Assembly: GCF_013409345.1 (NCBI RefSeq)
Contig: NZ_JACCBB010000001.1
Location: 2,108,001-2,172,000 of the forward strand
DNA: 64,000 nucleotides
Direction of reading: 5' to 3'
DNA from: Kineococcus aurantiacus
GTDB taxonomy: Bacteria > Actinomycetota > Actinomycetes > Actinomycetales > Kineococcaceae
In this document: piece after piece, positions 24,602 to 41,180 of the stretch
Layout: each line of letters opens with the position of its first letter
Numbering within the stretch: position 1 is the first letter of the stretch
The notes under the pieces: generated by a model
What the model saw: the letters and a program-made list of their open reading frames with translations, nothing else
Database searches by the model: none
What the model was told of the DNA's origin: nothing
Program-made: the position numbers and the translations under genes

Positions 24602-25327
24602 TCAGGCGTGGAGGTGGACGTCGAGCGCGGCGGCTTCGGCGAAACCCAGCCGGGCCAGGGCCGGCGCCTCCGCGTCGCCGCCGGGGTGGGTGTGCGCGAA
24701 CCGGGCCCCGGCGGCGAAGGCCCGGCGCAGCAGCCACGTCCCCAGCGCCGGGACGTGACCGGTCAGGCCCCCGAGCAGCGCCGCGGGGCCGGCCCGGCCC
24801 TCGGAGGCGAGCACGTACCCCGTCGCGGCGGGGACGCCGTCGCGGCGGGCGAGCACGACGTCGGCCTCGGGCGCGGCCAGCAGCGGCGCGCACCACGCCG
24901 CGGTCAGCGCCGGGTCCCCGCCGAACACGGCGTGGTCCAGGGCGACGACGGTGCCCAGGTCCCCCGGCCCGGCCGCCGCGAGGTCGAGCCCGGCGGGCAG
25001 CGGCTGCGGGCGGAAGTCACCGCGCTCCAGCAGCAGCAGGCGCTTGCGGAAGAGGAACCGGCCGTGCGGCCACACCATCCCGGCGGGGACCCGGACTCCC
25101 CACGGCACGCCCCGGTGGCGGTACCAGGCGCGGACGGCCGCGACGTCCACGGCGTCGGGGTCGTCGACGTCGGCGTTGTTCCACTGCGCGCGCGGCAGGC
25201 CGCTGGCCATCAACCGCGCCCCGGGCAGCTCGGCGGCCCCGCCGCGCAACCGGCCGTGGACCTGCCAGGCGTCGCCGTGCGCCGTCAGCGCCCGCCACGG
25301 CGCCGGTCCCGGGGAGGAGTCCGTCAC
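24602..25327 (-). CDS. GNAT-like acetyltransferase domain protein
   Basis: 241 residues. The C-terminal half has a GNAT-like layout (VVLARRDGVPAATGYVLASE, followed by LGTWLLRRAFAAGARFAH and ARLGFAEAAALDV). The N-terminal ~100 residues (AWQVHGRLRGGAAELPGARL, LPRAQWNNADVDD) form the substrate part seen in a group of two-domain actinobacterial GNAT proteins. Substrate unknown. GTG 25327 is preceded by GGGAC but no strong ribosome site. Upstream lies the 470-nt gene-free region with the repeat and RNA candidate. Confidence 0.75.
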   Translation of the reverse strand: MTDSSPGPAPWRALTAHGDAWQVHGRLRGGAAELPGARLMASGLPRAQWNNADVDDPDAVDVAAVRAWYRHRGVPWGVRVPAGMVWPHGRFLFRKRLLLLERGDFRPQPLPAGLDLAAAGPGDLGTVVALDHAVFGGDPALTAAWCAPLLAAPEADVVLARRDGVPAATGYVLASEGRAGPAALLGGLTGHVPALGTWLLRRAFAAGARFAHTHPGGDAEAPALARLGFAEAAALDVHLHA

Positions 25328-25400
25328 GGGCCGAGCGTGGCGGAGCGGGTCCGCGCGGTCGACCGGTCCGCGCTGGTGCCGCCTCCACCCCCACCCCGGC

Positions 25401-25453
25401 GTGATCGAGCATCGCGGTGGTCGAGCACTCGTGGACGGAAGTGCTCGATCACC
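25401..25453. repeat. Palindromic repeat, copy 1 (GGTGATCGAGCACT family)
   Basis: GGTGGTCGAGCACT (25416-25429) pairs with AGTGCTCGATCACC (25440-25453) around CGTGGACGGA, with one G-U pair. Outer, weaker copies of the same 14-mer flank it. It shares arm sequence and the GTGGAC loop with 41058-41127. Confidence 0.8.
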
Positions 25454-25469
25454 GAGGGCTCGACCCGAG

Positions 25470-25485
25470 TGTGACGCAGGCCACA
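25470..25485. promoter_or_regulatory. Crp/GlxR-like palindrome
   Basis: TGTGACGCAGGCCACA is one base from TGTGA-N6-TCACA. It lies between the palindromic repeat and the structured RNA candidate, about 50 nt before the latter on the plus strand, so it may mark a promoter. Confidence 0.35.
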
Positions 25486-25529
25486 CTGGAGGGTGTGTAA
25501 CGCCCCGGCGGGGTCGCACGATGTCGCTG

Positions 25530-25640
25530 GTGAGCCCGGGGGGCGTGCTCGGGTCCGGGGGGACCAGGACACGTCGGGCTCTGGAGGAACTGCAGTACCC
25601 GTTCGGTGACCGGGGGGTCGGTCACCGGGTGAACGACCCC
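25530..25640. ncRNA. Tandem structured RNA candidate, unit A
   Basis: A ~110-nt unit with nested stems: GAGCCC (25532-25537) with GGGCTC (25576-25581); CGTG (25544) with CACG (25570); GGTCC (25552) with GGACC (25561) closing a GGGG loop. Then comes a hairpin GGTGACC (25605-25611)/GGTCACC (25620-25626) with loop GGGGGGTC, followed by GTGAACGACCCC. A G6 run follows the first strand of stem 1. The strand is unknown; on the minus strand the loops are C6. See unit B for covariation. Confidence 0.55.
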
Positions 25641-25750
25641 GCGAGTCGGGGGGGATGCGTCATGGGCCGGGGGGCCCGCTGCGGCGCACCGGACTCGCGG
25701 GACGTGGGGTGCCAGCCTGGTGGCCGGGGGGTCGGCCACCAGGCGAACCC
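25641..25750. ncRNA. Tandem structured RNA candidate, unit B
   Basis: Same architecture as unit A with different paired sequence. Stem 1 is GCGAGTC (25641)/GACTCGC (25692), followed by G7. Stem 2 is TGCG (25656)/CGCA (25685). Stem 3 is GGGCC (25664)/GGCCC (25673) with a GGGG loop. The last hairpin is GCCTGGTGGCC (25715)/GGCCACCAGGC (25734) with the identical loop GGGGGGTC, then GAACCCC. All four stems change compensatingly between units while loop sequences stay the same. Together with 25328-25529 this fills the only gene-free stretch above 300 nt. Confidence 0.55.
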
Positions 25751-25797
25751 CTCCCCTCGACCCCTCTCGTCGACACCGCCGTGACGCGACCGGCGGT

Positions 25798-40977: not shown

Positions 40978-41057
40978 GGGCCGAGCCTACGGCCGGGCGC
41001 GCCGCCGCGCGCCGCCCCGCCACCGCCGCCACCGCTCCTCCCCTCCCCCGACCTCGC

Positions 41058-41127
41058 GGTGATCGAGCACTTCGGTGATCAAGCACTTGTGGACAGGAGT
41101 GCTTGATCACCGAAGTGCTTGATCACC
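41058..41127. repeat. Palindromic repeat, copy 2 (GGTGATCAAGCACT family)
   Basis: The left arm (41058-41087) and right arm (41098-41127) are near-perfect complements over 30 bp with a 10-nt loop TGTGGACAGG. Each arm consists of two tandem copies of a 14-mer (GGTGATCRAGCACT). It shares the 14-mer and the GTGGAC loop with 25401-25453. C/T-rich sequence lies to the left and G-rich sequence to the right. Confidence 0.85.
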
Positions 41128-41180
41128 GGGGGTGGGTCGGGGGGTGGGGCGAGGGTGAGGGTTGGGCGGGGCGGGGTGGG

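Follow-up and report, generated by a model that had tools for sequence, protein, structure and literature searches.

The window analysed here, a 64,000-nucleotide stretch of DNA from Kineococcus aurantiacus, contains two tandem units of what is, on strong comparative evidence, a small RNA encoded on the plus strand, which we call the G-loop RNA. Its gene family, which occurs in Kineococcus and a near relative, has no Rfam match and is new to that database. The initial annotation had described a tandem structured RNA with compensating base changes, and the observation is confirmed: it is real, more than chance, and was understated. All four stem pairs that it named are present in the sequence, as are the identical loops GGGGGGTC (25612-25619 and 25726-25733) and the GAAC on their 3′ side (25631-25634 and 25745-25748), and the homologues agree with the pairing. 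Each unit combines a long-range stem 1 and a G run with a two-part hairpin that has G6 at its apex and with a long terminal hairpin whose loop is G6 (Table 1). Three to five runs of at least five Gs occur per unit (19 units); 13 of the 19 units have an extra G run, and the terminal G6 loop is broken in one. The predicted fold of the window leaves four of six Gs unpaired at the stem-3 and terminal apices. The gene is about 230 nt long in its tandem form and about 120 nt in its single form. In 912 kb of partly redundant sequence, the element CGCCGTGA-N3-5-ACCGGC was confined to five of the 15 G-loop RNA loci.

We used two covariance models, R1, built from eight units of other genomes with the window's own units excluded, and R2, built from all 19 units. 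Across the alignment (19 units, 15 loci), 92.3% of cells pair, both sides have changed at 21 of 34 pairs, and double-change cells number 79, against a shuffled mean of 24.8 and 7 to 20 in slid structures; the alignment is fitted to the model, which biases pairing counts upward. None of 500 shuffles reached any of five measures. Ten of the 19 rows are neither in R1 nor near-identical to an R1 row. The paired columns also speak to the strand. They hold 73 G-U cells and 8 A-C cells across the 19 units (47 and 7 in the ten rows independent of R1), and since a minus-strand RNA would show the opposite ratio, the transcribed strand is, judged from these base pairs, the plus strand. Folding energy does not single it out, because the z-score is stronger on the minus strand (−6.16) than on the plus strand (−3.17); we attribute this, tentatively, to how strongly shuffled G-rich sequence folds.

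RNA had been favoured over a repetitive peptide from the outset, and the homologues bear out that choice. One plus frame is open in 19/19 units, as is usual for GC-rich sequence, but neither frame nor peptide is kept: unit lengths break the frame, and mean identity is 35% for the peptides vs. 66% for the DNA. An encoded peptide is unlikely.

Table 1. Features of the G-loop RNA locus (positions in the window; R1 is the covariance model defined in the text).
Feature	Position	Strand	Remarks
−35 element TGTAAC, SigD/ShbA-type promoter	25496..25501	+	TGTAAC-N17-CGAT at 15/15 homologous loci
−10 element CGATG	25519..25523	+	CGAT to stem 1 exactly 9 nt, 15/15 loci
Unit 1 of G-loop RNA	25529..25638	+	R1 61.9 bits, E 2.1e-7; unit absent from R1 training set
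G6 run 1, unit 1	25538..25543	+	3′ of stem 1 5′ arm; predicted mostly paired in window fold
G6 run 2, unit 1	25557..25562	+	Apex of stem 3
Terminal hairpin, unit 1, loop GGGGGGTC	25605..25626	+	Helix 5: 98.4% of cells paired
Unit 2 of G-loop RNA	25640..25752	+	R1 69.7 bits, E 1.4e-8; unit absent from R1 training set
G7 run 1, unit 2	25648..25654	+	Inside TCGGGGGGGAT
G6 run 2, unit 2	25669..25674	+	Apex of stem 3
Terminal hairpin, unit 2, loop GGGGGGTC	25715..25744	+	Pairing in alignment and predicted fold
3′ element CGCCGTGACGCGACCGGC	25777..25794	+	Possible terminator hairpin

Homologues with kept pairing were found by covariance-model search, all within one family. A BLAST search of 59 genomes (the window's own and 58 relatives) recovered near full-length homologues in G005 (84%), G006 (75%) and G007 (73%), along with partial homologues in several more; in the own genome it gave only short matches and no second full copy. 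R1 identified 17 copies in 11 of 12 Kineococcaceae genomes, with none in G002, an assembly of 500 contigs. Across 297 genomes of the order the same 11 were the only positives, with zero matches in the 285 sampled genomes outside the family (strict filters), and in a sample of 394 genomes of the class the own genome alone was positive (strict filters). R2 again found 11 of the 297 order genomes, with 19 copies. A promoter-plus-motif pattern run on one genome per species (84,980 species) matched at least seven stretches, all in Kineococcus; the pattern is strict and may miss the window's own record, and the count is a lower bound. Rfam, 6C (RF01066) included, has no match in the window, nothing relevant appeared there at permissive thresholds, and 16 further loci, including 13 homologous ones, gave nothing at gathering level. 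A match to mir-7640 was below its cut-off and located on a palindromic repeat upstream of the RNA; imperfect palindromic repeats based on GTGCTYGATCACCG are found in the window at 25399-25456 and 41057-41130. Among the matches listed in our literature search, in which subscription journals are thinly covered, no title or abstract opening names the G-loop RNA.

Tandem copies occur in four genomes (G000, G005, G006, and G007) and the remaining 11 loci are single. Among the four tandem species, unit-2 copies resemble one another at 78-96% and unit-1 copies at 67-87%, and the two sets are 60-70% alike. These values suggest a tandem duplication that predates the four species. The copy L137 (contig C94 of G004) has an apparent internal duplication of the inner hairpin; its promoter spacing was read directly from its sequence.

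The promoter is constant across the 15 loci (Table 1), and transcription would start about 5-9 nt 3′ of the −10 element. The pattern TGTAACRC-N15-CGATG has two to six matches per genome in 12/12 family genomes (41 in total) and zero or one in each of the 47 other genomes, and a reversed-pattern control gave two matches in 59 genomes. By reading the sequences, we assigned the 41 strict sites to the G-loop RNA (12), dapA (12), shbA (10), and others (7). In the own genome the promoter also precedes a second, compact G-run hairpin RNA candidate, L101 (G000:C1 564727 onward; CACGGGGGGACTCCAAGTTGGGGGGGTCAACTTCCCGTG), that R1 does not match. The SigD consensus of Corynebacterium glutamicum is given, in the part of the source available, as −35 GTAAC(A/G) and −10 GAT (PMC6338062). 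Both elements are found at 15/15 loci. For Streptomyces coelicolor ShbA, the accessible portion of the report describes in vitro transcription of hrdB and shbA (PMC9205884). For mycobacteria the SigD consensus is given as GTAACG, and the Mycobacterium smegmatis small RNA F6 is reported to carry it (PMC8583896). The own genome encodes a sigma factor that scores 244.7 bits against the NCBIfam ShbA model (cut-off 209). Since the promoter resembles the SigD/ShbA consensus and ShbA is present, we infer that ShbA probably controls the G-loop RNA.

The stretch had been called gene-free. It does sit between two minus-strand ORFs, but mechanical ORFs cross it, e.g., 24951-25784 on the plus strand. Its neighbours in the window are a minus-strand ORF on one side and a minus-strand glyoxalase gene on the other; the ORF at 24602-25519 (minus) has no Pfam match. 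Alkaline phosphatase and glyoxalase genes surround the RNA in the window, and G005 looks alike. An aldo/keto reductase lies directly upstream in both G008 and G001 (Pfam was run on G008). There are several gene settings across the 15 loci, some of them common to different species. The likeness to tandem riboswitches that had been raised is not supported: 11 of 15 loci have a single unit, and the loci do not present a same-strand leader of one gene class. The varied settings, with the next gene in the window on the opposite strand, argue for an RNA gene that acts in trans. A same-strand ORF follows the RNA at two loci (L046 and L144, in genomes G008 and G001), and at individual loci the RNA may serve as a leader.

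6C is a small RNA widely conserved in actinobacteria. We propose that the G-loop RNA may be a ShbA-controlled sponge for C-loop RNAs, 6C first and the dapA leader second, and we put the probability of this reading at roughly 45%; set against all rivals together, a sponge role has about even odds. ShbA would transcribe the G-loop RNA, which would act in trans, its G loops forming loop-loop pairs with RNAs that expose C runs. The likeliest partner would be 6C, which uses a C-rich loop to repress mRNAs that carry G tracts close to their start; as a decoy, the G-loop RNA would free these mRNAs. One of them may be shbA, with CCGGGGGG at its start, which would create positive feedback. The dapA leader, through its C-rich loop, may be a second partner. 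In Mycobacterium marinum, 6C (B11) is reported to repress mRNAs through a C-rich loop that acts on G tracts close to the ribosome binding site (PMC12395582), which would make an RNA with G loops a natural decoy. In C. glutamicum, according to a partial account, mitomycin C raises 6C about two-fold.

6C scores above cut-off in 11 of 12 family genomes. The exception is G004, where it was not found in an assembly of 1060 contigs despite the G-loop RNA being present; in G002 (500 contigs), 6C and shbA are present and the G-loop RNA was not found. The own 6C has two C7 loops, both predicted to be unpaired. TCGGGGGGGAT, around the unit-2 G7 run, is an exact 11-nt complement of ATCCCCCCCGA in 6C hairpin 1, nine of these nucleotides lying in the loop. 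Predicted energies for the six G runs of the window against the 6C loops are −5.8 to −11.7 kcal/mol after opening costs, the best being the unit-2 G7 run, in a model that leaves out loop-loop geometry. For the terminal loops the predictions are −8.9 kcal/mol with 6C and −9.7 kcal/mol with the dapA leader, and energy does not separate the partners. The bases beside the G runs vary across units, so that G6:C6 alone is kept, and C6 is not rare: the window's plus strand has 17 C6 positions. Complementary runs and 6C are both present; other C-run RNAs fit too, and predicted access is partial. Among 47 relatives outside the family, 6C was found in 10, ShbA in 11 and both in 7 (Fisher p = 0.0005), counts that include three 6C matches and one ShbA match below cut-off and a p that kinship confounds. 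If the sponge reading is true, the G-loop RNA is a natural antagonist of 6C and a small-RNA arm for the ShbA/SigD regulon. No antagonist of 6C is named in the titles or abstract openings among the literature matches listed.

The feedback step draws on the shbA start itself. CCGGGGGG stands there in all 11 family genomes in which shbA was found; outside the family, 11 shbA starts include one (G057) with G7 at a similar place and two with G6 elsewhere. The promoter with CCGGGGGG within 30 nt has 27 matches in 13 of the 297 order genomes. The 12 family genomes hold 26 of them (13 at the RNA, 11 at shbA, and two at a repeat in G001), one of the 285 genomes outside the family has the other, and the control gave one match. 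The repeat in G001 is a near-identical stretch at C1 136154 and 223268, TGTAAC-N17-CGAT followed by CCGGGGGG. Of 45 promoter sites, 28 have a G6 no more than 60 nt away, vs. 2.4% of background positions, although 26 of the 28 are RNA or shbA sites, whose sequences had led to the motif. The first six fourfold codons of shbA are invariant in 11 genomes, vs. 27/95 overall, which is at most suggestive of a nucleotide-level signal in the G6. In a 90-nt fold the shbA G6 is predicted to be paired, and its predicted pairing with 6C is weaker (−5.7 kcal/mol). The promoter and CCGGGGGG shared by the RNA and shbA suggest feedback. A fully closed circuit, in which ShbA would make shbA mRNA, the C-loop dapA leader and the G-loop RNA, and the latter would titrate 6C that represses shbA via its start G6, is doubtful. 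Were it true, a two-sided homopolymer code would tie cell-wall precursor supply to a sigma factor and to a damage-linked sRNA.

The dapA leader is also the basis of a competing explanation. All 12 family genomes have the same promoter before dapA and then a hairpin, whose loop is C5 in 11 of them and C4 in G011, and GGGGGTC:GACCCCC between the G loop and this leader is predicted at −9.7 kcal/mol. The RNA might mainly target the leader, its loop kissing GACCCCCGAG and altering dapA translation or stability in a feed-forward loop. We consider this unlikely as the main role. The same hairpin and loop precede dapA in G033, G042, and G043, and a C6-loop version does so in G028; these genomes represent four other families, in whose sampled genomes the G-loop RNA was not found. 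The GTC flank that would lengthen the pairing is kept in only 8 of 19 terminal loops. A link to dapA alone cannot explain the RNA, since the dapA element is present where the RNA was not found. We examined 30 dapA loci (of 60 matches) and saw promoter and hairpin in 12 and the promoter without the hairpin in two more; three of the 12 are in other families and have an identical loop GACCCCCGAG on an altered stem. The hairpin, with apex CCCGGACCCCCGAGCGGG, a changing lower stem and a GTAAC/CGAT promoter, is seen in several families of the order (L225, L227, L232, and L237) and, in the own genome, at L103 (G000:C1 4117439 onward), the one locus compared with Rfam, where it had no match. It may itself be a separate regulatory element. 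A broader antisense role, in which the RNA would pair with C-rich stretches of many mRNAs as a mirror of 6C, would suit the several G runs per unit with their varied flanks, and the available portion of the M. marinum study has 6C itself acting in this way on G tracts (PMC12395582). It leaves the promoter type common with shbA and dapA unexplained, and we regard it as rather improbable.

Other rivals to the sponge reading carry less weight. CsrB-type decoys are repeated hairpins with one loop motif, which the G-loop RNA recalls, and CsrA requires GGA in loops. A protein decoy like CsrB/RsmZ, catching CsrA by its repeated hairpin loops, has in its favour csrA in 11 of 12 family genomes, two to five GGA per unit, and a csrA gene in the motility island of Kineococcus radiotolerans, as given in part of its description (PMC2587704). 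However, A, C and T all occur after the G runs; among the 18 units whose terminal-loop run is intact, just one has an A directly after it, and another unit has an A interrupting the run. It is the G run that is conserved in the repeated loops, not GGA, and this role is quite improbable. Three to five runs of at least five Gs per unit would also allow a G-quadruplex RNA, yet the minimum-energy fold stays at −142.4 kcal/mol when quadruplexes are allowed, and the paired changes keep the stems too, not the G runs alone; we give this idea very little credence. Equally hard to credit is the minus-strand, C-loop RNA related to 6C that the initial annotation had considered. That strand does carry C6 loops and has the stronger fold z-score. 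Against this stand the excess of G-U over A-C, the plus-strand promoter at 15/15 loci, and a permissive 6C search without a match. No match to 6C at or above the 47-bit cut-off was found in the window or at 13 homologous loci, while a similar search recovers the own 6C at 61.7 bits, and where 6C has two hairpins with loops of at least six Cs, the supported strand shows G loops instead.

The G-loop RNA shares some features with several known systems. Like 6C (RF01066; B11 in mycobacteria), it is actinobacterial and has GC-rich hairpins with homopolymer loops of at least six, one of them terminal. It differs from 6C in having G rather than C loops, a long-range stem 1 and no model match; the two are complementary, not alike. 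CsrB/RsmZ RNAs also repeat hairpins that share one loop motif, but in the G-loop RNA the motif is a G run and GGA is not conserved. With the SigD/ShbA regulons, as excerpted in our sources, it has the promoter elements GTAAC and GAT in common; the targets named in those excerpts are protein genes, unlike the G-loop RNA, and F6 is one possible small-RNA precedent. In sRNA sponges, several copies of a seed complement stand on one RNA, which is the mode proposed here. The G-loop RNA differs from them in being structured and in having a sigma-type promoter of its own; for it, sponging is a proposal.
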